Shown here piece after piece: positions 2,015-44,571 of a stretch of 64,000 nucleotides of DNA (the first letter of the stretch is position 1; each line of letters opens with the position of its first letter). Both the position numbers and the translations under genes were made by a program. The notes under the pieces are model-generated. The model did not search any database. It was given only the letters and a program-made list of their open reading frames with translations, and was not told the origin of the DNA. The stretch comes from a virus. The DNA is taken from positions 171,673 through 235,672 of the IMG/VR virus record IMGVR_UViG_3300020473_001965; one strand, written 5' to 3'.

Positions 2015-3223
2015 TTAAACTTTAGATATGGAAAGTGGGAATGATTCTTTAAACCCGGAAATCACAGAGGCTGTTTTGACTAAATTCTTTAAATCGTCGA
2101 CAGCAAAAGGAGCTACATCCAAAAGCAGAGCATCGTGAATAATGTAAATGGGCGTTATGCCCAAGTCTTTTGCCCGGATCTCTTCAATAATTTTTCTAAA
2201 TCCGGACAGACACACGTCTACACCCGTCGATTGTATATAGTGACTCACAAGTAAATGTGAATCACACTTAGTGAATGTCAACGGGCGACCGTAATAGTTT
2301 TGTATTGAGCTTCCGCTTTCATGACACTCTCTTAACAACCTTCTAGCAAGTACGTCTATCTTAAAAAACGTTCTTATTTTATCCAGGACTATGGAAGCAT
2401 CGACGTCTCGACCGACAATAAGCTGTAACTTAACGGGCGATATACCGTAAAGTGCTCCCATGACTGCAATTTTTAACTTTACTCGATCAAGTTTTAGCCC
2501 TGTTTTTAAAGCTAAGCTATCGTAGATATCTTTATCAAATTCGACTCCGGCAAGGCACCCAGCTATTCGAGGCTCTAGAGAAGAGTAATCTACTTGTATT
2601 ATTCTTCCTCCGGGATATCTTGACTTAAAAATCTTTCTATGCTCTTTCTTAAGTGTAAGAATCTTGGGTCCTCTTTTAACAACTGTCCTTCCAGTCGCAC
2701 CTTGTTGATAGACAGGAGGTGGCAGCTTGTCGTCTGGCTTAGGACTAAAAGAATTAAGCGTTGATATCAATGTCGGGTTCGTTTCTTGAGCCTTTAGATC
2801 GTTAAGAATTTTTTTATCAATCAAGGCAGGTTGCAAGCTCGTCAGTGCTTCTCTGTTGACTAGAAAGTTGTCGACGTATGTTGTATCATTTATCTTGTCA
2901 AGTGCGCTCCAGAGATCAGCCACAAGGTTAGAAATATAACTTTGGAACACAGCTCGAGGGAGTGCATGATGCCATGGTATTGAAAGTCCAGCGGGTAGAC
3001 CACAAGTTGTATACGCAGTCACGTATTTTTCTGGTGGTCTGTCTCGTGGATCGATATTGAACATCAAGCACAAATCATTTAAAGACCTAACTGCATTGGG
3101 AGCATTTCCGTATATCCATGCATCTTCAGGTGGCGATGATACCCAAGAAAAGAGACCTGTACTCCTTTCACACAAAAGATTCTTATCTGTCCCTAAGAGG
3201 TTTTTTGAAATACAAACTTGCAC
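2015..3223 (-). CDS. Family A DNA polymerase, polymerase domain only
   Basis: 402 residues. The palm motifs of the Pol I family are clear: TGR near residue 178, motif A VDYSSLEPRIAG (Asp212, Glu217), motif B with Arg247, Lys251, Gly256 and Tyr259-Gly260, and motif C IYIIHDALLLDV (Asp364). No 5'-3' or 3'-5' exonuclease domain is present, so the protein is shorter than ordinary phage Pol I enzymes; an exonuclease could be encoded elsewhere, as I recall for the split polymerase of Rhodothermus phage RM378. Two oddities: the position equivalent to E. coli Phe762 is Met255, and the residue after the motif C Asp, normally Glu, is Ala365. The start is a GTG with no clear ribosome site; an in-frame TAA sits just upstream, so no longer form exists. 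Confidence 0.85.
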   Translation of the reverse strand: MQVCISKNLLGTDKNLLCERSTGLFSWVSSPPEDAWIYGNAPNAVRSLNDLCLMFNIDPRDRPPEKYVTAYTTCGLPAGLSIPWHHALPRAVFQSYISNLVADLWSALDKINDTTYVDNFLVNREALTSLQPALIDKKILNDLKAQETNPTLISTLNSFSPKPDDKLPPPVYQQGATGRTVVKRGPKILTLKKEHRKIFKSRYPGGRIIQVDYSSLEPRIAGCLAGVEFDKDIYDSLALKTGLKLDRVKLKIAVMGALYGISPVKLQLIVGRDVDASIVLDKIRTFFKIDVLARRLLRECHESGSSIQNYYGRPLTFTKCDSHLLVSHYIQSTGVDVCLSGFRKIIEEIRAKDLGITPIYIIHDALLLDVAPFAVDDLKNLVKTASVISGFKESFPLSISKV

Positions 3224-3253: not shown

Positions 3254-6200
3254 TCAAGGAAGACGAGCTTCGGCAGCTTTGACTCTATTTTCCCACACAG
3301 TTTTTTGACTAGAATCTTCCTCTGAAGAAAATGAAGAGCCTAGCCAGGCGTTAAAGAGGCCTATTAGGCGCTTGCATTTTGCTTTATTGTTATCAGACTT
3401 TTTCTGCTTTGCGTCTTTGTCTTTGCCTGTTCTCCTGTCAGCGTCTTCTTTGTACCTAGCAGCCAGGATGGCTGCGCCTTCGATATCATGCAGAAGGTTT
3501 CTAGGTTTCACGCTTCTGAGCGTTGCTAATCTAGCTGCCTTAGCAGCTGCCTTTTCAGCAGCTTCTTTTGCGATCCCCGCTTCTTCAGCATGTTCGTTAA
3601 TTAAGTCTGTTTCAACAATTCCACGAAGAGCTTGCTGGTTAGTAACTCTCACTCTTACTTCATCTTTGTTTGCATCAACTTCATCTATGGCAGCCGCTGT
3701 CTGATCATCAACAGTTGTTCCGCTCGAGCCTACACGTGTTGCGATATCTGACAGGCGTTGAGTCAGATCTTTAAAGACTGCATATCCCCCTGTGTATAAG
3801 AGATTTGCAGACGTCGTAAACTTTCCTGCCGCAACTTCATGAGACACACTCATTACACTGTACAAAGCATCAAGATCTGTGCCTGTTCTGAAGTCTACAA
3901 AAACTGTTTGCAAGGGTGCGATAATGGGACATCCTGGAAGGGTCAAGTTTAATTGTTGAGGCATCATAGTCATCGGCATTATATCTTCTTCGATACCAGA
4001 ATCATCGCCTGGATCAGACCCCTTCAACATGTGAACGGTGTTCAAGTCAGAATTTGATGAGTTACTAATACTTGCAGCAAATAGTGCTGAATTACTAGAG
4101 CCTATGTCAATAGAAGGTGCAAAAGTTTTTAATAAGTCTTTGTATGCGTTGCCTCGTTTAAATACTAGATAGTCTCCTTCGTTTGACAATAGACCTAAAT
4201 CTTCAGCAAAAGTATAAGCTCTATTTCTATCAATCGCACGTGAAACAGATGCTGTGTAAGGCTCCTCTTCACCTTCAGATTGATTAACTGCAGACGGGAC
4301 ATAGTCTTCAAAGATTCTATACATTAAATCTGTCGCTCCTGAATATGACATCGATTTTTCGTCTTCAATGTATATCCTCAAGATCTTTGACGATTCGCAT
4401 GTGGCTGCGCCTCCTACTTCTGCTTTTCCCTCTGGGGTCAAAGGCTGGATTGGAGGTGCTTCAAACTGAACCTTTATCAGTGGGGTTCTGAACTCATAGG
4501 GGCCCGTTTCGTAAGCGTGCTTTAATGCTTCTGACCTTTTGCTGTTAGCAGTTTCGAGAACTCGTTCAGACTCAATTTCTTTATAATCAAAAAACCCTGT
4601 GTCCTTGTTTACAGTTCTTGTATAGTCGCGACCTTTTGATCCGAAGCCGTATTCTGCCCATCCTTGATTATCAAAAAAGACGTTCTGAATCAGTCCTACA
4701 AAATCCATTATCCCTATGTTGGGACCTTGTGCATTGGTAACTCGATCCATTGCAGCTTTAAAGTCTGGCCAGTGGATTGGTATCGCTGCGATTGACATGT
4801 TGCTTATATAAGAAGCTCTGTCATTAATAACACCCCATATCACTTGAATCTCGTCAAACTCAGGAAAACCTGGGGCGTATGTCAGAGGTGATACGACGTA
4901 GAGATTGAAAAGCTTTCCTAGAGAAACATAGTCTCGGTTTTGCTTTCCTATCAACATATACTTTTCGACGCGTGCTGAATCTTTTAAGTCAGGCTTGTAT
5001 TCGTAAAGCCTTGGGTGTGTACTACCTCCCCAGCATTTATCCCAAACGAGCCAAGGATCAGGCGCGTCCCAAACTCCAGTCAACTTCTTAGACGCAACGC
5101 TTTTGATTGTCTCTCTTGCTGAAGTCAACGCTGATATGTTTGACCCACCCGACCCTATCAATTCTTCTAGTGCAGCTACTGCATCATCGGGAACAGCATC
5201 ACCAGCTTTTTTTGCAGTCGCTATTAAGGCATTGATTGAGTCAAGTGCTATAGGAAATGTAAATTGCTTTCCGGCTTTGCCTGCTGATTCAAAAATCTTT
5301 TTAATTCTTGTCGTAGGAAGGCCGGGGGTTTTTTCAGGCAAATAATCACGTATAGAGACGATGAGATCTTCCAGGTCTTGCAACATCCTCTGTTCAGATT
5401 TTGCGACATCATCGAGTATCTTTCCACCCTCGATAAACTGTTGTGCTCCGCTAGCTGCAATCGTCAACGTTACCTGAACTTCTCCTGTTGGAGTGAAAGA
5501 ATACGAAGAGTTTGCAATCATGAACGTCTCAGATCTTCTCATGCTATTGATAAATTGACCAAAAGGTGCGTCGCCTATCGGCAAGTTTGCATCTGGATGG
5601 ATCCAGCCATATTCTATTTTTAGATATGTAGTGCCCATATGACGTGGGCTTACGAGAGATGCTATTTCTGCAAGTCGAGATCTGTCATGCAGAGTAAAAG
5701 TTAGAGACCCGTCTGTAAAGATAATAGAGTTTACTTGGGGCGCTACATTTAGCTTTATGCCCATAAGAGACATGAACGGACGGTATGGGTCGATTACGCC
5801 AGATGTGGTTCCATTAAACCCACCTATTCTAGTTACTGTCCCACGGCGCTCGTCGGAATTTACCAGTGTTTGTGGTGATAAGAATACTTCCATGCCGCTT
5901 ACATTTCTTATTTTCGATTGTTCAGCCTTCACGGACGTATCGTCTGCGCCGTCGGGCATTTCCAGCCTGTTTGAAGTTTTTGACCATGATGTGGAAGAGA
6001 ACTCATCCTCGCCTAGTAAAAACCTGTATAATGATGGGACACCTTCTGCATCTACATTATCTGTACCACGACCTGGTCCGAAAAATTGAACGTCTAAATA
6101 CGGCACACACCTGGACAACTCAATTGTTGGAAGTGCATTAAGAAAGATGTGCAGAGCTTCAGAATTTCCTGTTTCTCTAGAGAATGTTATATCATTGCTG

Positions 6201-29723: not shown

Positions 29724-31607
29724 TTAGATAATGTGCATATCCAAGCAGGTAACTGTACCGTAGAAGTCAGAACGAACCATCTTCTTGCCGTAGCGAGTCA
29801 TCACGCCCTTGCGGGGTGTGAAGTCTTCTGGCGCGAAGATAGTAGGAGTGACGATGAGCGGTACGTACGGAGCGTAGACGTATCCTGTCTCAAGGTATGA
29901 TCCGCCCTTGTATCCGACGAGGATCTTGTTGCGTGGGAAGTAAGGATCCTTGTAAACCGTGAAACGGTTTGAAAGGGAACCAACCTTCTCTGCACCAAGG
30001 CTCATTGGAGAGCTGACCTGACCTTGTCCGTCGAGGCTGTAGCTTGGCTTGTAGAGCACAGAGCTCTCAAGGATAGTAGCAACATCAGGACTGACAACGA
30101 TGAAGTTCGCAGAACCACGCAGGGTCTTTCTGTGAATGGTATTGGCAACGTCGATGATTGTCTCGACGAGAGTCTCGTACCATTCGCGGACCGTACCAGT
30201 GAAGGCTGGGCCGGCAGAAAGCGTGCTGGAAAGATCTACTTCATCTCCAGTATCCTTATCAACGAACTTACCAGGTGCACGTGACCAGTAAAGGTTAGCA
30301 CCATTTGCCTCTGTAAGGAGGTCGTTGAGGATCTCACGATCGAGCTCAAGAGCGATCTGCTCGGAGAGGATCTGAGTAAGCTCAACCTCAGCATCCATGC
30401 TGTGGTAAGCGTTCAGGTCCTGAGCAAGCTCTGGAGACCAGCGAGCGCGCAACTTACGTGTAGCTGCGGTAACTGCGATGGACTCGATCTTGATGTCGAT
30501 CTCAGGGATGACTGGGCTTGGGGTGCCTGTTCCGAAGTTGGATTCGAAAGCTGGAATAGTAAGCGTGTCACCCTGATCAGCGTTAGCTGAAAGGCTAGGA
30601 CCGATTACCCAAGAAACATCAGCTGCACCAGCAGGAACTGATCCACCGTCACTCAAAGCAAGAGCGAAGAGAACGTGTGTTCCACCTACAGGATCGTCGG
30701 ACCAAGCTGAGCCTGTCCAGTCACCACGACGTGTAGCACGACGAAGGTTAAGAACACCGTTACCAGCCTGATACTTCTCGCCCCATGCTGAAACGTTGTT
30801 TGCCGTTGCGAAGTCTGTAATGGCAACCTGGTTAAGCATAGAAAGATCTGAACCAGAAAGCTGTCCGGTCTGAAGCATGCAGAATGCGACGTCAAGATCA
30901 CCATCATCAATTGCGCGACGAACCTGAGGATCGTAACCAAGATATTTGGCGTTAGAGCCTGAGAAGTCAGTCAGTGCAGCAACTGTGTGTGAAGCTGTCC
31001 ATGTCTTACCGTTGGATCCACCCCAAGCACCGAAAGCGTTCATAAGAGGAAGTGCTGAACCACTGTGAACTCTCGAGAAGCCGGTACCGGCGAGGTCGTA
31101 CATACCACCAGCTGCAAGTGATCCTGAACGGACGCCCTTACCGCGTGGGTTGTTATAGATTGACTGACCAGCTGCGTACGTAGAATCTGTGGTGCTGCGA
31201 CCAGGGCGATCTCCGCCAGGTTGATAGTCACCACCAACGTTGTTTCCGTAGGTGTAGTCAAGATAGAAGAGCAGTCCAGAAGGAAGGCTCATTGGCTGAA
31301 TTGAAACAAGCTCGTTTGCAACCAATCCACCGAAAACACGGCGAACGATTGGGAAAGCGATGTTCGTAAAGCCACGAATATCGTTTGATGTTGAAAGAGC
31401 ACCACCACCTGTAGACAGAGAGTTGGTCTCACGAAGAAGCTGAGCAGCCTGGTTCTCTAAAAGCATCGCCATGTTCTCGCGGTTTGTACCTTCGAGTCCA
31501 CGGAGAAGACCAGTTCTGTTCCACTTCTCTGTAAGCCTGTTACCCTCAGAGCCCATATGACGTGAGCGTATATCTTCGGTGAGCTGCTCTAATGTGAATT
31601 TACTCAT
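29724..31607 (-). CDS. 23: Major capsid protein, gp23-like
   Basis: 627 residues (T4 gp23 has 521). The signature FTNIAFPIVRRVFGGLVANE and LVSIQPMSLPSGLLFYLDYT is diagnostic. Later conserved parts are IDIKIESIAVTAATRKLRAR, WSPELAQDLNAYHSMDAEVE and LTQILSEQIALELDREIL, then DFYGTVTCLDMHII at the end. The N-terminal 65 residues or so are helical and charged, the part normally removed by the prohead protease. Strong AAGGAGATA site. It directly follows the scaffold gene (37-base gap) and ends at a strong terminator. Confidence 0.96.
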   Translation of the reverse strand: MSKFTLEQLTEDIRSRHMGSEGNRLTEKWNRTGLLRGLEGTNRENMAMLLENQAAQLLRETNSLSTGGGALSTSNDIRGFTNIAFPIVRRVFGGLVANELVSIQPMSLPSGLLFYLDYTYGNNVGGDYQPGGDRPGRSTTDSTYAAGQSIYNNPRGKGVRSGSLAAGGMYDLAGTGFSRVHSGSALPLMNAFGAWGGSNGKTWTASHTVAALTDFSGSNAKYLGYDPQVRRAIDDGDLDVAFCMLQTGQLSGSDLSMLNQVAITDFATANNVSAWGEKYQAGNGVLNLRRATRRGDWTGSAWSDDPVGGTHVLFALALSDGGSVPAGAADVSWVIGPSLSANADQGDTLTIPAFESNFGTGTPSPVIPEIDIKIESIAVTAATRKLRARWSPELAQDLNAYHSMDAEVELTQILSEQIALELDREILNDLLTEANGANLYWSRAPGKFVDKDTGDEVDLSSTLSAGPAFTGTVREWYETLVETIIDVANTIHRKTLRGSANFIVVSPDVATILESSVLYKPSYSLDGQGQVSSPMSLGAEKVGSLSNRFTVYKDPYFPRNKILVGYKGGSYLETGYVYAPYVPLIVTPTIFAPEDFTPRKGVMTRYGKKMVRSDFYGTVTCLDMHII

Positions 31608-31644: not shown

Positions 31645-33201
31645 TTACTTAAGACCTGCAAGCGTTGCCCAGCGATCAACTTCTGTATCAGATGCTGTCG
31701 ATGTAGCAGAGCGTGTTGGCCTAGATGAACCCACAGCCTTTCGAACTGTTGATTCGTTAATTGAACCACTTTTCTTCTTAGAAGAAATCGATTCTGTCAT
31801 TGTCTTGTAAAGCAGCTTGACTTCTCTTAAGCTTCTTGCATTATCCAGTGACTCGACGATCGAACGCATTTGGCGAGTCGATATATTCTTGTTCTGGAGA
31901 AGCTTATTTGCATAGAGTAACTTTGCATTGAAGAGATTCATCTCTTTCAACTGGGTCTGAAGTTCGTTAACAGCGTCAACTGCTTCAGAAAGCTGTCCCT
32001 GGAGATCACGATTCTTGCGTGACTCATTAACAACTGCAGCACGGAGTTTCTTGTTCTCTGCGTGCACGTTTAAATCTTTATCTGACATGGCAAGAGGATC
32101 TTTTCCTCGCTTGCCACCCCCGAAATCGTCTCCGGACTTGCCGGAACCTTTGCCACCGAACTGATCAGCCATGTCCTTAGCAATTCCCTTTACCTTCAAA
32201 AGGTCGGGAGCTTCACTGAGTGCTCTCATAGCAGCAATTTCTCGACGGAGCATTCCCTCGTCGATTTCAATCCATTCGTCATCATCGGTGTCTGCCTCTT
32301 GCATGTCACCTTCATGATGCATTTCTTCGCCTGCGTACATGGCTTCTTCGACTTCTTCCTCACCCCCTTCGTCGTCGCCTTCTACGTCTTCTTCGCCGGC
32401 TTCTTCGCCTAAAGCGTCTTTAAGTGCGGCAAGTAGCTCTTCAGCAGCATCAGGATCAAGTTCGAGGTCAACTGCCTCGCCTTCGTCTTCTACAGCTTCA
32501 TCGCCTGGTTCATCGAGGTCTTCAGCCTCATCTTCTTCGCCGCCTTCGTCTGGGGCGTCCAAGTCTAGATCTAAATCTTCATCAGCATCAGCTTCATCTT
32601 CGTCTTCCTCGAAGAGATTAAGCTCACTGAGGTCTAATTCGTAAAGAACTTCATCTTCCGAGCGTTTTGACATTTTGATAGTCTCCTTAATAATGGTGTC
32701 AAGTGTTAAAGATAGAGCGGTGTCTGCATCAGATGATCCATCACCTTCGACTATACGTATTAGCTGATCACGTAAAGTTTTTGCCTCTGATATAATATTA
32801 GAAGCAATTAATTCAAATTTTTCATAGACTGCATCATCTTTTTCTTCAATTGTATTATAAAGAACGGCTGCATCTCTAAATGATTCTATTAGGCTCTTTA
32901 GGGCAACCTTGCTTTCCCGGGTCAATTCTTTGTCATTGTCATCTTCTGTTATCGACGCCAAGACGTTTTCATCTACTTCAAAAAAAATGTCTTCGGATTC
33001 ATCTAATCCGAAGATTTCTGCCATGAAATCGTCACTTTCTAGATCTGATGTGCTTTGAGCCTCATCCAACAATTCTTTTTCAACTAATCGTTTTATCTGA
33101 GGTGTCATCGCTTCAATTATTGCTTTTTTAGCATTTGCTTCAGCTGCTTCTCTTAATTGCTTTGCTTCCGCAATTGCTTCTGTGTATAATGAGTTTGACA
33201 T
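31645..33201 (-). CDS. 22: Prohead core scaffold, gp22-like
   Basis: 518 residues. Long helical N-terminus, a very acidic centre (for example DEDEADADEDLDLDLDAPDE) and a conserved-looking C-terminal region (NAKLLYANKLLQNKNISTRQ, then MRSIVESLDNARSLREVKLL) typical of gp22-type scaffold proteins of marine T4-like phages. The last residues are DRWATLAGLK; the 146-residue protein at 34735 also ends with WATLA. The scaffold forms the prohead core and is later degraded by gp21. The large acidic insertion makes it almost twice as long as T4 gp22 (269 residues). Placed between protease and capsid genes as expected. Confidence 0.8.
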   Translation of the reverse strand: MSNSLYTEAIAEAKQLREAAEANAKKAIIEAMTPQIKRLVEKELLDEAQSTSDLESDDFMAEIFGLDESEDIFFEVDENVLASITEDDNDKELTRESKVALKSLIESFRDAAVLYNTIEEKDDAVYEKFELIASNIISEAKTLRDQLIRIVEGDGSSDADTALSLTLDTIIKETIKMSKRSEDEVLYELDLSELNLFEEDEDEADADEDLDLDLDAPDEGGEEDEAEDLDEPGDEAVEDEGEAVDLELDPDAAEELLAALKDALGEEAGEEDVEGDDEGGEEEVEEAMYAGEEMHHEGDMQEADTDDDEWIEIDEGMLRREIAAMRALSEAPDLLKVKGIAKDMADQFGGKGSGKSGDDFGGGKRGKDPLAMSDKDLNVHAENKKLRAAVVNESRKNRDLQGQLSEAVDAVNELQTQLKEMNLFNAKLLYANKLLQNKNISTRQMRSIVESLDNARSLREVKLLYKTMTESISSKKKSGSINESTVRKAVGSSRPTRSATSTASDTEVDRWATLAGLK

Positions 33202-33282: not shown

Positions 33283-33531
33283 CTAGCGAGAACGTTCTTT
33301 TCTTTGCCTTCTTATTGCCCTGTTTTTCTTTTCTCGCTTTTTTTGTGATTTTGTTTTGTGATACTCAGTCTTTTCAACGTAGATCTTAACAACCCTTTCT
33401 TTTTTACATTTCTTTATAAAACGTCGTATCAAAGCTTCAGAGTTATCGCCGCGGACAGGTGTTTTTCTACCTCGTCGTCGGGTCCGATTCAGATCATTTT
33501 CACTGACGGAAACGTTTGCTCCTTTTTTCAC
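33283..33531 (-). CDS. rpsU: Ribosomal protein bS21 (phage-encoded)
   Basis: 82 residues, GTG start preceded by GAGG inside the end of the previous gene. After a 26-residue N-terminal extension, residues 27-82 follow the bS21 pattern: V-x-G-D-N-S-EALIRRFIKKCKKERVV, then a basic Y-H-K-T-K-S-x-KKREKK region and an Arg/Lys-rich end. bS21 sits on the 30S platform near the anti-Shine-Dalgarno region and aids start-site choice. It replaces or competes with the host protein in some phages. Here it is the last gene of a run of head genes and directly abuts the 200-residue protein, so it should be made with late proteins. Confidence 0.85.
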   Translation of the reverse strand: MKKGANVSVSENDLNRTRRRGRKTPVRGDNSEALIRRFIKKCKKERVVKIYVEKTEYHKTKSQKKREKKNRAIRRQRKERSR

Positions 33532-34134
33532 TTAAACCTCTTCATCAAATATAAACACTGGTTCATCTTCATCAAAAAGTATATCAACCAGCCTATACTT
33601 TCTAGGTCTTTTTTCATCTCTTGGAAGTTTTTGACCGGCGGCAAATGATCTCTTTGATGTTACCCCGCCACGGGGTGCATGTCCTGTTGTGTAACCTACG
33701 GGTGATACACCGCCTGTTGCGCCGCCGGCTTGTCTACCCTTGTACAGACCAGGCATTGGAGTAATAGAAACACCAGATGTTTCATTTACTGTGTTGTAAT
33801 TTTTTTCTGCACCCTGGTGTAGATCAAAACGAACTGAATGCCCTGAGAAACTTCCGTAGTCTCGACGCTTATACGGGTCTGAAGTTTTGTGTGTGAGGCT
33901 TACTTTGTTTTGAAGCTTCTTTTCCGTCTCTGGATCCAAGTCCTCGAGATCATCTTCTTCGCAAGACTCATCATCAAGGATGTCGGGTTCTCTATATGGA
34001 TATGTCCCTTGTTTTTGATAAACTTTAGGATTGCTAATGGTTCCATACCCTGACCCAGTTCTGGGGTCGGGCAAACTCATGGCTGCAGCCCTTATGTACT
34101 CTCGCAAAATTGGTTCATAAGGGCTGCCAGTCAT
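33532..34134 (-). CDS. Low-complexity head-module protein, unknown
   Basis: 200 residues without a known family. It starts with a short helix (YEPILREYIRAAAMSL), then a Tyr/Gly-rich stretch, an acidic block (DDESCEEDDLEDLDPETEKK), a Gly-rich linker with the repeat-like TGHAPRGGVTSKRS, and an acidic/hydrophobic end (RLVDILFDEDEPVFIFDEEV). ATG start with GGAG overlapping the end of the upstream gene. Architecture is like that of the 197-residue protein at 490-1083. Its place between decoration-like genes and bS21 points to the head, but nothing more specific can be said. Confidence 0.55.
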   Translation of the reverse strand: MTGSPYEPILREYIRAAAMSLPDPRTGSGYGTISNPKVYQKQGTYPYREPDILDDESCEEDDLEDLDPETEKKLQNKVSLTHKTSDPYKRRDYGSFSGHSVRFDLHQGAEKNYNTVNETSGVSITPMPGLYKGRQAGGATGGVSPVGYTTGHAPRGGVTSKRSFAAGQKLPRDEKRPRKYRLVDILFDEDEPVFIFDEEV

Positions 34135-35611: not shown

Positions 35612-36223
35612 TTACTCCCAATCCAAGATTTCATTGAATATTCTATCAACTTTGTCTGAGTTGTTAAAAAAGGCATCGAGGTCGGCCTCTGTTACAAGTT
35701 GTTTTCCTTCTCTCATAACAAATGCACCAGGTGTTGAAGGCTCAGAAACGAAATCCCAACAAATTAGCTGGAAATCATCTTGCACTACTTGATATTGACC
35801 TTGGCGCTTTGTTGAACCCACACCCCGAGAAGATATGCCTAACTTCACCCCAGATTCTACAAGGCTCTGGAGTATTTTTCCACAGGGTGTATCGAGAAGC
35901 TCCACAGAACCATAGACAACATCGCCCTCGAGATGAGCTTCCCTAATAATGTGAGAAACATTCTTGAGTTCAACCACAGAAGAATCTGGATGGTCACATT
36001 CTCCTAGTGCTCTATTTTCTTGAATAAATTTTTGATAATTTCTTAATTCTCTTTCGAGTATTGCTTTCGGGTATATTCTCCCATTTTGATTTACGGTCTC
36101 TGCTTTTTGAAGAATTCCTTTCAAAATAATTTTTCCATCATTAAGTTCTCGGGACTCTTTAATCATGTCAGGAGTGTAGTCAAAATTAGAGTAAGAATTT
36201 ATGACATGTAATTTTTTAGACAT
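35612..36223 (-). CDS. 21: Prohead maturation protease, gp21-like
   Basis: 203 residues. The herpes-protease-like fold of gp21 is indicated by GKIILKGILQKAETVNQNGR, IYP, the His motif GECDHPDSSVVELKNVSHII (His78) and the Ser motif KLGISSRGVGS (Ser131/132), followed by QLICWDFVSEPSTPGAFV. The enzyme digests the scaffold and trims capsid and core proteins, cutting after (L/I)-x-E in T4. Start overlaps the preceding core gene by eight bases. The region order portal, core, protease, scaffold, capsid matches T4 with insertions. Confidence 0.92.
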   Translation of the reverse strand: MSKKLHVINSYSNFDYTPDMIKESRELNDGKIILKGILQKAETVNQNGRIYPKAILERELRNYQKFIQENRALGECDHPDSSVVELKNVSHIIREAHLEGDVVYGSVELLDTPCGKILQSLVESGVKLGISSRGVGSTKRQGQYQVVQDDFQLICWDFVSEPSTPGAFVMREGKQLVTEADLDAFFNNSDKVDRIFNEILDWE

Positions 36224-37070: not shown

Positions 37071-39077
37071 CTATTTGTCTTCGTCCTCGTGGGACTCATT
37101 TAGTATTACGGATGTGTTATTACTTATCTTTTCGCCCAAGTTTTTTATAACAGATCGGATCTCATTATTAAACTTTGCATTTTTATCAAGCTGAGAGTCG
37201 AAAAAATCATCTAAAAATCCATCAGCTTCTTTCATTGTAAGGCTTCCAATTCTAGCTAGCTCTGCCCCGGGTGTCCTTGATCGTTTATTTTCACCTGTTG
37301 CTGAGGCGCCTAAATCTATTGCTGGTACGCCTGTCTTTCCTGCGCGCCGGCGTCGGCGGTCATGACCTGTGACTTTTGAAGTAGGCTTTACTGGATTTTC
37401 ATCGTCTTCGTCATCGTCTTCGTCAAGTAAAAGATCATCGTCTTCGTCGTCGGCTTCATTAGCAATCATTTCTTCAAAAGTTTTTGAAGTTAAAAGGTCT
37501 GTTGTCCTCGGGGTGTAACCAGCTGTCTCTGTACCTGCGTCTTCGGGAGTTGGTTCATCTCCCCCTTCATCGCCGCCGCCGCCTTCGTCGCCGCCGCCGC
37601 CTCCGAAAATGTCGCCGCTTGGTGCTCCGAAGACACCACCGGGGGTGTCATCTGCTGCAGGTTCACCTTCGGCGGCGCCAGGAGGTTGAATCGATTCTAT
37701 CTCAAGCTCTCTTATCTTGTCTTGCTCTCTTCCCTCTTCGACTTCATCAATAGCTTCATCAGTTAAACCTATAATGTTTTTTCTAATCCATCTCTTGTCA
37801 ACAATACCTTCTGGTACTTGGCCGGCGATTTCCATTTTTGATCTAAACAGCTCTAGCTTTTGCTGCTGTGCTATTGTGCTTGGATTAGAAAGTCTAAGAT
37901 CAAAATCAATTAAGTCGTCACCGTCATAACCCTTTACATACAGTGTGATAATAGCAATCTTATTCAATTCGGCAATGATTGTTCGCTGAATCCTTGCAAT
38001 TGATCTTGAGAATCTTATATCTTCTTGAGCAAGAGTTGCTTTTGAAGAAAGAGCCTCATCGTAACCTAAGTAAGCTTTAGGGATTTTTAGTGCTGCAAAA
38101 AGCTTCTTCTGAACGTATTCAACATCGTTGATATCGTTTTGATTTGTTCCTCCTGCTAAAGTGTCAATTTTTGTCCCTGTTTCTGTACCACGCACTGGTA
38201 GAAAATAATCTTCATCAACAGAGAGTGGGTTATATCTCAAGTCAACTCGCCCAGTCTTTTTATCAACAACCTGACTTCTCTTGAGCGTCGTCTGAACTTG
38301 CTCCATATAGTTAGGGACTTCTTCAGGTGGGACGTTACCTACGTCAATGTAGAAAACTCTTCTTTCAGGTGATCTAATAACTCTATAAACAAGCATAGCA
38401 TCTTCAATAAGAATCAACTGCCTCCAGATTCGGCGGGCAGCTTCTAGAACTGATGATCCGTACGGTAAGAATGCATCGTTACCTAAAAGCCTAAAATGAG
38501 ATATTTGCCAGTTTTCAAGAATCTGGTTTCCTTGCGTTATCCATCGAAATCGCACTGCCATGGGGTCGTTAGGGTCGAAACCCTCTTCTCTCTCAAGCTC
38601 ATTTACTGGAATAGGGTACGCGTTAATTACCCCCTCGTCTGGATCTACATCATTAAACAAAAAGAAGTCGCCGTACTTGCATAAAGTTCTGACCCAAGAA
38701 GATAGATTAAAATCTACATTTATGACGTCATAAAAGAGTTCTTCAAGTATTCTCTGAATTTGAGGGTTTTCTGAATATATGTGAAGAACCCTTCCTTTTT
38801 CATCTGGGGCGGTAGACTCTTCTGAATATATGTCTAGAGCACTTGCAATTTCAGGCATATATTCCATTTCAGAAAAGTCTGCATATCTTGCAGTTCTATC
38901 ATATGACCCGTATGCGCTCATGGTATGAGAGTACACACCGCTTTGATTTCTCTTGAACGTGTCAAAAGGTGTATTCTTAGAAATAGTTTTGTATTTTTTT
39001 ACGCTTCTATTAACAGCAGGGCCTGACCTAAAAAGATTTGTCAGTCTCTTGAAAAGCGTTTTTTCGTCTTGCGCCAT
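37071..39077 (-). CDS. 20: Portal protein, gp20-like
   Basis: 668 residues (T4 gp20 has 524). Diagnostic stretches are RTARYADFSEMEYMPEIASA, ALDIYSEESTAPDEKGRVLH, LIEDAMLVYRVIRSPERRVF and YIDVGNVPPEEVPNYMEQVQ, then FFAALKIPKAYLGY-type sequence (FAALKIPKAYLGYDEALSSK). Twelve copies form the ring through which DNA enters and leaves. The C-terminal 200 residues add a Gly/Glu/Asp-rich low-complexity region (GGGGDEGGGGDEGGDEP, then DEDDDLLLDEDDDEDDE) and a basic end, absent from T4. It follows the terminase by three bases. Confidence 0.95.
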   Translation of the reverse strand: MAQDEKTLFKRLTNLFRSGPAVNRSVKKYKTISKNTPFDTFKRNQSGVYSHTMSAYGSYDRTARYADFSEMEYMPEIASALDIYSEESTAPDEKGRVLHIYSENPQIQRILEELFYDVINVDFNLSSWVRTLCKYGDFFLFNDVDPDEGVINAYPIPVNELEREEGFDPNDPMAVRFRWITQGNQILENWQISHFRLLGNDAFLPYGSSVLEAARRIWRQLILIEDAMLVYRVIRSPERRVFYIDVGNVPPEEVPNYMEQVQTTLKRSQVVDKKTGRVDLRYNPLSVDEDYFLPVRGTETGTKIDTLAGGTNQNDINDVEYVQKKLFAALKIPKAYLGYDEALSSKATLAQEDIRFSRSIARIQRTIIAELNKIAIITLYVKGYDGDDLIDFDLRLSNPSTIAQQQKLELFRSKMEIAGQVPEGIVDKRWIRKNIIGLTDEAIDEVEEGREQDKIRELEIESIQPPGAAEGEPAADDTPGGVFGAPSGDIFGGGGGDEGGGGDEGGDEPTPEDAGTETAGYTPRTTDLLTSKTFEEMIANEADDEDDDLLLDEDDDEDDENPVKPTSKVTGHDRRRRRAGKTGVPAIDLGASATGENKRSRTPGAELARIGSLTMKEADGFLDDFFDSQLDKNAKFNNEIRSVIKNLGEKISNNTSVILNESHEDEDK

Positions 39078-39080
39078 TTT

Positions 39081-40703
39081 TTACTTCCACAACCAGTCAA
39101 AGTCAACCGGTATTTTATTGCTTGTTGTTTTATCTGCGTCCTTGTCAACGTCACTATTGCTTGTTGAAATTGGCATAAACGGATTAAGCCGATCAGTTAA
39201 ATGTCCAGTAACATTTTTATCTCGATATTGATTTCTAGTAAATTTCATTCCCTGGAGCATCGCTTTATTTAGTGCCATAGCATCTTTACTGTAATCGGAA
39301 GATGTGTCATAAAGCCAGACACCTATTGCCAAACTCATGACTAGATCATCATTATACCCTTTCATAGCTTGAGGTTTATTGTTTTTCCAAACGAAAGTCT
39401 TGAGTTCTTCATAAAGCCTGCTAGAGTAGATCTTTATTTCTTTGTTTCTTAGGACTTCTTCAAGCTTTGTAAGTATTTGATTTCTAGATTTTCTTTGTGT
39501 ATCAAAGCCGGCTTTGTCTGTGTCATACCCAGGCGTGTAAGCGCCGATATAAACAGACTTTCTGTTTCGATAATAAAGTTTCGGATAATTTAACTCTTTT
39601 AATTTTAAAATTGTTGCGTATCCGAACGAATTGTTTTCAGGAACCATTAACGCATTATTATATTTTGTTCCCCAATCGAATAGTAATTGTGCAAATCTAT
39701 CAGGAGGTATTTTTCCTTTATATTCAGCTACAATCTCAGCAGTTGCTGTATCAAGTATGTGAAAAGTTGAAAAATCTTTTGCATCTCCTCTAGCAATATC
39801 TGCAGACACAATATATTGATGTGCGCTCAAAGGCTGTTTCCAAACCCAAACGCACCGTGCCGGACCGTCTCGAAATGAAGGTGCTTGAATCATGTTTGCA
39901 ACCCATTCGATATCCTCGTTGGTCAAGAATGTTTCACCTGAAGATGCGAAATCGCAGTTTAGCTCTTGAGCTATCTGCCTTTTTGTCATATTGCTGGTTT
40001 CTTTTTTGAACCAGTCGTCATCGCGCTCTGGGTGGACGTCCCAAGGTAACGTTATAGGATTAAAATCATTTAGATTATCCAATGCATCTGTGTACAATTT
40101 ATGGTACTGTCCACCTACTCCATTGGGTGTTGATAAGATTACAGCGCGTCCACCAGTAGATAGTGTAGGATATAACCCCATCCACAATTCATCAAAGTTT
40201 CTAACAAATGCGGCCTCATCGATAATCAAAAGTGAAAGAGCTTCAGATCGGCCGGCGTCGTCTGATGTGGGTATCGCTTTTATTGAAGATCCGTGACTAA
40301 ATTCTATAGACTGCTTATTGTCTGCAACTATCTCAGGCAGTATCAACCACTTGGGTAACGACCTTATTAAGACTTTAACTTTTCTAATAAAGTTTTGAGC
40401 GACTGCAAGTTTTGTCGCAATGATTAGAATATTTTTATCTTTATGAAAGAGGGCTAACCACGCTGCGTAAGATGCAGTTAATGTTGATAGGCCTAATTGT
40501 CTTGCTTTAACTACTACATTAAATCTGTGATTTATAAAATCTTGAACACAATCATCTTGGAAGTCAAACGTCTTGAATGGTATTAAGCCCCTAGTAGGGT
40601 GCTGGATCTTAACGTACTTGTTGAAAAAGTATTTTGGATCTTTACCACACTTAATAATTTCTTTGACTTGGTAGTTTTTAGATGGTTGCTTACTAGCCGG
40701 CAT
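39081..40703 (-). CDS. 17: Terminase large subunit, gp17-like
   Basis: 540 residues. ATPase: an atypical Walker A VVVKARQLGLST (Lys66, Ser73, Thr74; no Lys before Ser/Thr), Walker B LLIIDE (158-163) and the coupling motif VILSTPNG. Nuclease: VSADIARGDAKDFSTF (Asp302), ALMVPENNSFG (Glu356) and GYNDDLVMSLAI. The protein pumps DNA into the prohead through the portal and cuts it when the head is full. ATG start with a weak GTAGAG site. The gene before it is separated by one base. A small terminase subunit is not obvious in this window. Confidence 0.95.
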   Translation of the reverse strand: MPASKQPSKNYQVKEIIKCGKDPKYFFNKYVKIQHPTRGLIPFKTFDFQDDCVQDFINHRFNVVVKARQLGLSTLTASYAAWLALFHKDKNILIIATKLAVAQNFIRKVKVLIRSLPKWLILPEIVADNKQSIEFSHGSSIKAIPTSDDAGRSEALSLLIIDEAAFVRNFDELWMGLYPTLSTGGRAVILSTPNGVGGQYHKLYTDALDNLNDFNPITLPWDVHPERDDDWFKKETSNMTKRQIAQELNCDFASSGETFLTNEDIEWVANMIQAPSFRDGPARCVWVWKQPLSAHQYIVSADIARGDAKDFSTFHILDTATAEIVAEYKGKIPPDRFAQLLFDWGTKYNNALMVPENNSFGYATILKLKELNYPKLYYRNRKSVYIGAYTPGYDTDKAGFDTQRKSRNQILTKLEEVLRNKEIKIYSSRLYEELKTFVWKNNKPQAMKGYNDDLVMSLAIGVWLYDTSSDYSKDAMALNKAMLQGMKFTRNQYRDKNVTGHLTDRLNPFMPISTSNSDVDKDADKTTSNKIPVDFDWLWK

Positions 40704-41131: not shown

Positions 41132-41434
41132 TTAAAACTTTAAGTCTGCAATCGATATCTTTCTATTCTGCAGATCTTTCTCGACCACATCTTTTGGTGG
41201 GCGTGCACCTGAAAGCCATGCGTCTCTATCTAAATATGCATAATTTACTTCACAATTTGAACAGCACTTGCTATTATTATAAGACTCTAAGTCAAGTGTA
41301 GAATTAAACATTACATCACACACTGGACACTCTGCAGGTAGAATCATTATTTTCTTTTTTGGTTTTATAATAGTAAGGCCGTCAGAATTAATTCTGTATT
41401 TCCTGTCTTTATCCAAAGATTTCCATTGCATCAT
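41132..41434 (-). CDS. Small zinc-ribbon protein
   Basis: 100 residues. A CPVC knuckle (LPAECPVCDVMFNS) and a second knuckle (KCCSNCEVNYAYLD) about 20 residues later form a probable four-Cys zinc ribbon. The N-terminus is basic and beta-like, the C-terminus helical. The ATG overlaps the stop of the Mre11-Rad50 gene (TAATG), so translation is probably coupled. Proteins with such ribbons next to recombination or terminase genes could bind DNA or a protein partner; no family assigned. Confidence 0.65.
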   Translation of the reverse strand: MMQWKSLDKDRKYRINSDGLTIIKPKKKIMILPAECPVCDVMFNSTLDLESYNNSKCCSNCEVNYAYLDRDAWLSGARPPKDVVEKDLQNRKISIADLKF

Positions 41435-44400
41435 TACTCCACAAAAACATAAGAGTCTTTACTCTTTCTTGTAATATCAATTACATTGTCAACAACATCT
41501 TTAACTGCGTCTACGTGAGATATTACTAAAATATGATGAAACCATTTTTTCAAAGATTCAAGAAGTCTATTGCAAGCCTCTACGTTCATTTCATCTAGCG
41601 CCCCAAATCCTTCATCAATAATCAAAAGATCAGTCTTTGGCAAAGACGAAACATTGATAAGTGCAACTCTAATTGCCAAAGACGCCATCATCTTCTCCAT
41701 TCCTGAAGCCAACTCTATTACACGCTTAGAATCTCCGTAATTAATGTATATGTCCATCTGATTTGAATTCTTATCTGCCTCTAGTTCTACTGTAAAACCT
41801 ACGACTCCCTGAAGAATTTTTGCAATCTCAGAATTAATAGAAGGTAGTTGTGACATGATTATTTGAAGCGGTATACCTTTTTTCGACATTGCATTGTTGA
41901 AAAGATCGTATATTTTTAACTTCTTTTTTAAGTCAATGAATTTTTCTTTCTCTTCTTTTAAGGAATTTAGATTGCTTTCCATCTTGCCGACAGATTCTGC
42001 CAGCGATATCCTCAAAGAGTCAGAGTTGTTTATTTTTTCTGTTAACTCTTCTATTTTTGTTTTTAACTCCAAGAGTTTTTCATCTACAGATATATCAAGT
42101 ACCTTTGACTCCAAATCTGAGAGTGTTTCTTTTGCAACTACTAGTTTCTCTCTCTTGTTTTTCAATGCGCTCGCATTATTCTTCTTTTTAAACTTTAAGT
42201 CATTTCTTTCAGACTTTAGCTCGACTTCTTGTTGCAATACCTTGTTGTATTTAGAAAGTTTTTCTTCGAGCTTCTCTTCTTTAAAAAGTTCTATTGCCTT
42301 CTCTGTCGCCTCAAATTGACCTTCTAGTGTTTCAATTAGCTCTCTTTGACTCCCTATCTTTAATTTGCTCTTGTGAGAGTCTTTTATAAACTTGCATGTA
42401 GGAAAAGAATCTCCGCATGGTACTTCAGACAGATGCTTTACAGACTTTTCTTGATTAGATAGTCGTGTTTTCTCTTTATCAAGTGTTGCTTTGATTTCTA
42501 TGAAACTAGTTTCAACTTGACGCTGCTCCCTAATCCTCTGATTAAGATCTTCACGAGAAAACAAGCCCTGAAAATTTTCTATCTTTTTAAGCTTTTCATC
42601 GACATGCTTAATCTCTAAGTCAAGTTCGCTGTTCTTATTTTCTAAATCTAGAATATCCTCTTCGATTCTTGTGGTCAATTTTTTCTGTGAATCTACGTCA
42701 TGATGCGTTACTACATCGGCATCATCAAACTTTGACAGAGATAATTTTAAATCTTGAAGCTTTGCTCTGTCTGTGTCTATTCGAAGCTGTGTTTTAACAA
42801 TCTGCTCTCTTTTCTTATCTAGTGATTGTTTAACATCATAAATGGCTACATCCCAATCTCGATCTGGAACATTTTTCAAAGCACTCTGAAGGTCTCTTGA
42901 CTCTTCTTTTGACGAATCCAGCATTTTTTCGAAGATTTCTAGGTCAAGAAACTTGGTAAGAATCATTTTTCTTGATGTCGCCCGCTCTCTAATGAAATTA
43001 TTCATCTGGCCTTGGGACGCCAAAGACGTCATAAGAAAGTCATCAGCAGTCCCCAAAAGTCTGCGCAGAACTTTTTCTGTTTCTCTACGCTGTTCTTCTG
43101 TCATGTCTTGAATCATCTCGCCATCGAGCCCGGTTCGATAGAAATTTAAGTGAGTTGTAGCATTAACTTGACCGCTTCTATTTTGATGCTTGACTGATTG
43201 GCGCTCTGTCCTATAGTTTTTACCATTTATTCCCAAGTCTATTTCTACCTTGCAATGACCTTTTCTACTATTAATGACATGAACGTTTTTAATTGGGCCT
43301 CGATCTGTAGTGTTGTAAAGGCCGTACATCAATGTTCCGATGATTGATGATTTTCCAGATCTATTTTTTCCAAATATTCCCGTAATTCCCGGCAGTGTCT
43401 CAAAGTTTATATAGTTTCCTTTGCCATATCCAAAAACATTGTCAAACTTCATAGACTTGATAGACCACTTTGTGTTTCTAGTAACGGCCGTGTCAAAAAC
43501 GGCTGCTTGGCTATGCTTTGAAACCAAATCTTCAAGAGTTTTCCACTCGTCTTCTTTTAAGACCGCACCTTTGTAATACTCTTTCATCAATAATTGAAGT
43601 GTCTTTTCGGATCGCAAATCTTTAATTGCACTACCTTCTTTGGAAGTTCTTAAAGATGTCTCACCAAAGTCGACGTCATATTTGTATACGATTTCTGTAG
43701 CTTCTTTAACATGTTTCAACTCTGAATGCAGATGAACGATATCGGTTTGATTTATTTGGTTTTCAGATTTTACTCGAAATCTTGCTCCATCTGGGTGCTT
43801 TCTTGCTTCTTCCATCGTGTCAGGAACATTTCCCTTCCACTCGATTGTGACAAAGGGCATGGTGTGGTGTACTTCATAAAACTTACTAGTATACTCATCT
43901 TTAGATTTAATATCCCAAAATAAAAACCCTTTACCCGGATCTTCACCGTAGTTTTGCTGAATTGTTGAGCCGCAATAAGCTATGCGTTTTTCATCGTCGA
44001 GATATTGCATCTTGTGGATATCGCCCAACAGTGCAAATTCATATTCATCAAAAAAACTAGTCTTTACTTCACCTTCGATGTTCCAGTTAATATCAGTCTT
44101 TGATCCTAAAACACCGCCGTGAAAAAGTGCGATATTAACGTCTCCCGGAACAGGTTTGACAGATTCCCAGTTTTCTTCATCAAAACAAGAAAAGACGCAC
44201 CAATTAAATCCTGCAACGCCTGTTGGGTATGTTCCTGACTTTTTATATAGATAAATGTTCGGATTATTCAAGGCTTTGACAATAGGTGTTATTGCGTCTT
44301 GCCGATCTTTGTTTAAAATCAGACCGTCATGATTACCTAAGATAACATGTGTAGGAGCAATTTCAGCAAGACCCTGGAACCACCAGGACAAAACATCTAT

Positions 44401-44571
44401 TAATTCTGGAGAGATTCCCTGAGTTTTGGAGTGTACTATGTCTCCGCCTACATAAATTACATCAGGCTTTTGTGCTTTTGCTTTTTTAAAAAAGTCTTTG
44501 AAAGCATCTACGTACTCTTTGTGTCGCGATAGTCCCCTAAAGTGAACATCAGCTATGTGTATTATTTTCAT
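41434..44571 (-). CDS. Fused Mre11-Rad50 (gp47-gp46/SbcD-SbcC) recombination nuclease
   Basis: 1045 residues in one frame. Residues 1 to about 365 are a calcineurin-like Mre11/SbcD nuclease: IADVHFRG (Asp8, His10), VGGDIVHS (42-47), LGNHDG (79-83), HGG (151) and GDIHK (183-187). From about 366 an SMC-type ATPase begins: Walker A GKNRSGKSS (391-399), Q-loop ASQGQ, two coiled-coil arms around a zinc-hook-like C-x6-C (Cys709, Cys716), signature ASGMEKMMASL, Walker B LLIIDEGFGALDE (982-994) and HILVISHVD. In T4 these are two genes (47 and 46) acting as a complex on DNA ends. The fusion fixes their ratio. Start ATG has only a weak ribosome site. Confidence 0.92.
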   Translation of the reverse strand: MKIIHIADVHFRGLSRHKEYVDAFKDFFKKAKAQKPDVIYVGGDIVHSKTQGISPELIDVLSWWFQGLAEIAPTHVILGNHDGLILNKDRQDAITPIVKALNNPNIYLYKKSGTYPTGVAGFNWCVFSCFDEENWESVKPVPGDVNIALFHGGVLGSKTDINWNIEGEVKTSFFDEYEFALLGDIHKMQYLDDEKRIAYCGSTIQQNYGEDPGKGFLFWDIKSKDEYTSKFYEVHHTMPFVTIEWKGNVPDTMEEARKHPDGARFRVKSENQINQTDIVHLHSELKHVKEATEIVYKYDVDFGETSLRTSKEGSAIKDLRSEKTLQLLMKEYYKGAVLKEDEWKTLEDLVSKHSQAAVFDTAVTRNTKWSIKSMKFDNVFGYGKGNYINFETLPGITGIFGKNRSGKSSIIGTLMYGLYNTTDRGPIKNVHVINSRKGHCKVEIDLGINGKNYRTERQSVKHQNRSGQVNATTHLNFYRTGLDGEMIQDMTEEQRRETEKVLRRLLGTADDFLMTSLASQGQMNNFIRERATSRKMILTKFLDLEIFEKMLDSSKEESRDLQSALKNVPDRDWDVAIYDVKQSLDKKREQIVKTQLRIDTDRAKLQDLKLSLSKFDDADVVTHHDVDSQKKLTTRIEEDILDLENKNSELDLEIKHVDEKLKKIENFQGLFSREDLNQRIREQRQVETSFIEIKATLDKEKTRLSNQEKSVKHLSEVPCGDSFPTCKFIKDSHKSKLKIGSQRELIETLEGQFEATEKAIELFKEEKLEEKLSKYNKVLQQEVELKSERNDLKFKKKNNASALKNKREKLVVAKETLSDLESKVLDISVDEKLLELKTKIEELTEKINNSDSLRISLAESVGKMESNLNSLKEEKEKFIDLKKKLKIYDLFNNAMSKKGIPLQIIMSQLPSINSEIAKILQGVVGFTVELEADKNSNQMDIYINYGDSKRVIELASGMEKMMASLAIRVALINVSSLPKTDLLIIDEGFGALDEMNVEACNRLLESLKKWFHHILVISHVDAVKDVVDNVIDITRKSKDSYVFVE

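Follow-up and report, generated by a model that had tools for sequence, protein, structure and literature searches.

A divergent bS21 homologue with a clade-restricted basic insertion among the head genes of a T4-like jumbo phage

What might a gene for bS21, a small ribosomal protein with a part in selecting the mRNAs to be translated, do among the head genes of a phage? The question is raised by an 82-aa open reading frame with a GTG start and a TAG stop (33283-33531, minus strand) in the stretch of DNA analysed here, the window, which is the last 64 kb of the viral record IMGVR_UViG_3300020473_001965 (record length 235,672 bp). The record is that of a T4-like jumbo phage, probably of marine habitat; about 97% of the window is coding, and 48 of its 50 called genes lie on the minus strand. 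On this strand the ORF is flanked on one side by the genes for the large terminase (TerL; 39081-40703; PF03237, E 1.7e-15; phrog_2, E 3.3e-52), a gp20-type portal (37071-39077; PF07230, E 6.4e-76) and the prohead protease (35612-36223; PF03420, E 3.4e-27), and on the other by those for a 518-aa acidic protein (31645-33201) and a gp23-type major capsid protein (MCP; 29724-31607; PF07068, E 7.7e-77); terminase, portal, protease and MCP all lie within a few genes of it. The 518-aa protein, for which Pfam and PHROG searches gave no convincing family match, is a probable scaffold or core protein, as its gene lies directly upstream of the MCP gene and occupies the same protease-to-MCP position in relatives. 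The protease-MCP interval holds the ORF and five genes of unknown family. An earlier note, made from the sequence alone, had described the ORF as abutting head genes, which is borne out: the stop codon of a 200-aa gene of unknown function (33532-34134, minus strand; no Pfam or PHROG matches; 56-61% identity to the relatives L015-L017) lies immediately upstream, and the scaffold-like gene begins 81 nt past the ORF.

Three other genes of the window deserve mention. A sulfotransferase-family gene (PF03567; 28915-29619, minus strand; 60-62% identity in L015-L017) lies directly downstream of the MCP gene, and a 402-aa ORF among the tail genes (2015-3223, minus strand) matches DNA polymerase family A (E 1.5e-10). 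A single 1045-aa ORF (41434-44571, minus strand) combines a Metallophos domain with an SbcC/Rad50-type ATPase; in T4 the Metallophos-type and SbcC/Rad50-type subunits are separate proteins (gp47 and gp46).

As judged from its sequence, the homology of the 82-aa ORF to bS21 is settled, and the ORF is a divergent, typical phage bS21 in a known setting. The profile search by which the earlier note proposed to verify this identity gave scores on both sides of the cut-offs: with PF01165 of Pfam (cut-off 27) the single sequence reaches 23.4 bits (E 4.7e-5) and with TIGR00030 of NCBIfam (cut-off 28.95) 22.6 bits, both too low, whereas a record-wide PF01165 search that included neighbours in frame gave 27.3 bits, above the cut-off of 27. 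The identity itself is upheld by the homologues. PF01165 is matched by 20 of 20 phage homologues (alignment A4; best E 1.6e-12), and an HMM made only from phage bS21s outside the window's clade gives the window protein 54.8 bits, compared with 6.5 bits for the best of 2000 shuffles and at most 5.4 bits for other proteins of the record. Profile-profile comparison with bacterial bS21 gave 93.5% for the window's clade and 98.2% for all 20 phage homologues, with hhalign E-values over 57 columns of 2.3e-7 and 3.7e-14, respectively. Helices are predicted at residues 31-44, 47-54 and 61-81, and helix 1 (LIRRFIKKCKKERVV) is strongly conserved among the phage relatives. Like bacterial bS21 (rpsU), the protein has the helix 1 pattern [RK]RFxKxCxK and a basic C-terminal helix; it differs in having CKKERVV for CEKAGIL, KTKSQ for EKPS and a long linker. 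Purifying selection is evident in the closest pair of relatives, L016 and L017, where dN is 0.07 and dS 0.72 (dN/dS about 0.1), with 24 of the 39 differences at third positions. A fold search with the predicted model returned nothing significant (best E 4.1, S. aureus ribosome chain 5nd8_u), and a search of an annotated phage collection with the bS21s of the window and of L006 gave no matches.

The earlier note had further ascribed to the protein a 26-residue N-terminal extension, a description that has to be revised. Residues 1-9 (MKKGANVSV) align with ordinary phage bS21 starts such as MAINVSV and MATNVAV, and the extra residues follow this strand. A better description is a basic insertion of 11-16 residues that separates the N-terminal NVSV strand from helix 1; alignments A4 and A5 and the linker length place it in the window at about residues 10-25 (SENDLNRTRRRGRKTP; 33457-33504, minus strand), with uncertain ends. 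The linker between strand and helix 1 measures 25 residues in the window and 26-31 in L015, L016, L017 and L083, compared with 9-14 residues outside this clade, E. coli included. Placement of the strand is based on the short motif N-[VI]-x-V and the multiple alignment, the strand being absent from the predicted model and the hhalign alignment starting only at residue 27. The extra stretch is basic (7 K/R vs 3 D/E over 20 residues in the window), and the N terminus is poorly modelled, with a pLDDT of about 50 over the stretch, as expected of a disordered segment. True Arg/Asn-rich N-terminal extensions, located before the strand and unlike the internal insertion of the window's clade, occur in the bS21s of L011-L014 (e.g., L011:5875-6192, L012:257-547 and L013:1310-1588).

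Two scans for related viral bS21 loci returned 13 and 65 loci, some shared and many near-copies. In the relatives listed, bS21 shares the strand of the head genes, and the protease-MCP position recurs in dozens of contigs: in a distant group (TerL identity about 50%) bS21 follows the protease gene at once or a few genes later, and in the window's wider clade (TerL at least 60%) its place is immediately ahead of the scaffold-like gene. Its presence is patchy. Among 35 wider-clade loci spanning protease to MCP, 8 carry bS21, always in the same slot, and 27 have none in that slot (the count refers to the slot only) while keeping protease and MCP. On the TerL tree the insertion is confined to a single clade, that of the window (99% support), and the bS21-free phages require four to six state changes. 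These slot data fit an ancestral bS21 that was lost repeatedly, although bS21 may instead have been gained repeatedly within the wider clade.

The start of the gene is unusual as well. The bS21 GTG (33529-33531) comes straight after the TAA that ends the 200-aa gene, and the terminal part of that gene contains a Shine-Dalgarno (SD) site, GAAGAGG (33537-33543, minus strand), 5 nt upstream of this start; translation of bS21 is likely coupled to that of the 200-aa gene. In the wider clade the bS21 start is GTG in the window, L083, L128, L133 and L155, TTG in L015, L016 and L017, and ATG in L135 and L142, the starts having been assigned by rule and that of L133 taken from the second-ranked candidate. 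GTG and TTG thus interchange while ATG is avoided: non-ATG starts are found in 8 of these 10 bS21s, compared with 6 of 48 window genes (Fisher p 6e-5) and about 1 of 55 other phage bS21s (Fisher p 8e-8), p-values that are overstated since the sequences are related. In the window, L016 and L083, the three loci inspected, the GTG or TTG overlaps or touches the upstream stop codon and the SD site is inside the end of the upstream gene. Non-ATG starts together with this overlap suggest that bS21 synthesis is coupled and perhaps regulated. In Bacteroidota, rpsU autoregulation involves an exceptionally strong SD, below -13 kcal/mol (PMC9976891); this type of control was not seen here, the bS21 SD of -6.5 kcal/mol (nine-base anti-SD duplex) being ordinary for the record. 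An inverted repeat at the start of the 200-aa gene (34085-34127; 15-nt arms, 93% complementary) could be a regulatory hairpin.

The identity of the host was approached through bS21 itself, as the earlier note had envisaged, and this phylogeny named none. In the bS21 tree, which has only 66 columns and a limited bacterial sample, the two subsets of the wider clade group together (93/87), and all the phage copies fall together, to the exclusion of every sampled bacterial one (100/99). The phage motif FxKKCKKE was found in no bS21 across 84,980 genomes, and a search of one bacterial phylum, covering 399 genomes, yielded nothing beyond ordinary scores (at most about 41 bits). Assignment by the nearest bacterial bS21 was rejected, as the best hits among the matches listed were scattered over Fibrobacterota, Gemmatimonadota and Acidobacteriota (40-51% identity to a phage relative). 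A typical Bacteroidetes host is not favoured because the phage uses SD sites: half of the window's starts reach -5 kcal/mol or lower, compared with 11% of ATG controls.

Several features of this locus have precedents. Published accounts already describe phage bS21 near head genes, its late expression and ribosome entry, and basic 'extensions' at its N terminus (Mizuno 2019; Al-Shayeb 2020; Chen 2022); in the passages of these accounts considered here, neither the lineage-specific insertion nor the conserved non-ATG start was found. The closest parallel in layout is offered by the freshwater Bacteroidetes jumbo phages of Chen et al. 2022 (PMC9723584), large myoviruses with bS21 among TerL, portal, prohead protease and MCP; of 900 published bS21 phages, 310 have a protease and 154 an MCP near bS21 (PMC9723584). 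As described, bS21 and the head genes occupy opposite strands in those phages, while in the window they share a strand and bS21 abuts the upstream gene; the hosts are predicted to be Bacteroidetes and the bS21 copies are host-like, whereas the window genome uses SD sites. The rpS21 of the huge phages of Al-Shayeb et al. 2020 (PMC7162821) likewise has extra basic residues near the N terminus, which were proposed to bind RNA; from the description they stand before the strand, rather than after it as in the window, although some may be of the window type. Pelagibacter phage HTVC008M (Mizuno et al. 2019, PMC6375957) is, in turn, a T4-like marine myovirus with a bS21 for which ribosome incorporation was shown; that bS21 is reported to be close to the host copy (54% identity), in contrast to the window bS21, which stands apart from the sampled bacterial copies. 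Outside the window, the record also encodes a one-piece phage tmRNA (record position 5354-5720, L238:5354-5720, minus strand; Rfam RF00023, 111.7 bits, E 1.8e-44; tag ANNNYHYEQRLAA) and, elsewhere, eight tRNAs, a set that fits a phage supplying several translation parts; tmRNA and several translation parts have been reported in huge phages (PMC7162821).

How, then, might the protein act? We consider it probable that the phage bS21 is made with the head proteins, takes over from host bS21 or makes up for its absence, and tilts initiation in favour of phage mRNAs, with the basic loop adding contacts. Coupled to translation of the preceding 200-aa gene, bS21 would be produced together with the head proteins and would take its place on the 30S platform, beside the 3' end of the 16S rRNA, where it would favour phage mRNAs. 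The disordered basic loop just ahead of helix 1 may make additional contacts, either with rRNA or, close to the Shine-Dalgarno pocket, with mRNA. Published work puts the N-terminal helix of bS21 over the anti-SD, at the site of mRNA binding (PMC9723584), from which we infer that a basic loop preceding this helix would lie close to the mRNA or to the 3' end of the 16S rRNA. A factor that acts on SD pairing would have targets in this phage, which uses SD sites. The position of bS21 in the head cassette fits late timing: in other phages bS21 transcripts appear late in infection alongside those of structural genes, a late role has been proposed for it in the freshwater Bacteroidetes phages, and the idea of a late switch of translation, which the earlier note had also put forward, is already in Chen et al. 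2022 (PMC9723584). Several results weigh against the proposed role. The single sequence scores below the Pfam and NCBIfam cut-offs, its N terminus is poorly modelled and the fold search gave no significant hit; E. coli ribosomes carrying a viral bS21 are almost inactive (PMC6375957), and 27 of the 35 related phages have no bS21 in this slot. A stronger ribosome site in late genes, for which the earlier note had suggested looking, was not found: with crude gene calls, SD strength does not separate the window's structural genes (mean -5.5 kcal/mol) from the rest of the record (-5.0 kcal/mol; p=0.23). In addition, the T4-type late promoter TATAAATA is absent from the coding strand, its three matches all being on the non-coding strand, the number expected by chance.

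Three other roles have to be weighed. The phage bS21 could act as a brake: once incorporated into host ribosomes, it would depress host initiation without actively favouring phage mRNA. Viral bS21 does enter E. coli 70S ribosomes, and because these are almost inactive, with only some 5% of their activity left (PMC6375957), the effect may be inhibition and not redirection; however, the host in that assay was mismatched and a single reporter served as readout, and a location beside head genes implies expression when phage protein output should peak, which makes a pure brake unlikely.

A use in the head itself, as a small basic internal or core protein that is packaged and perhaps delivered with the DNA, seems improbable. 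T4 has small core genes in the slot next to its scaffold gene, and its prohead protease recognizes sites of the type [LIF]-x-E. The bS21 slot does adjoin the scaffold-like gene and the protein is very basic, but its helix 1 motif is strongly conserved, inspection of the sequence by eye revealed no [LIF]-x-E sites, and the 27 related phages that lack bS21 in the slot still have protease and MCP. Packaging was raised as a possibility by Chen et al. (PMC9723584). Least probable of all is mere replacement, in which phage bS21 would complete ribosomes after loss or degradation of host bS21 and leave mRNA choice unchanged. In its favour, bS21 binds loosely and can be exchanged, and initiation on most mRNAs is poor in ribosomes without it (PMC6375957, PMC9976891); against it, the phage protein diverges strongly from all sampled bacterial copies and carries an insertion ahead of helix 1, both of which suggest an altered function.

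The favoured reading, a bS21 that biases initiation towards phage mRNAs, can be carried further, to a specialised initiation factor whose loop alters mRNA choice, whose non-ATG coupled start sets its dose by feedback and which would remodel ribosomes in step with head production; this more elaborate scheme we regard as rather unlikely.

In all, a bS21 in a phage head cassette is, as such, ordinary. If the loop changes mRNA choice, it would offer a small and transferable means of controlling initiation specificity. The clade provides a natural contrast, with related phages that have the insertion, lack the insertion or lack bS21 in the same slot, and this contrast bears on the question of whether phage bS21 redirects ribosomes.
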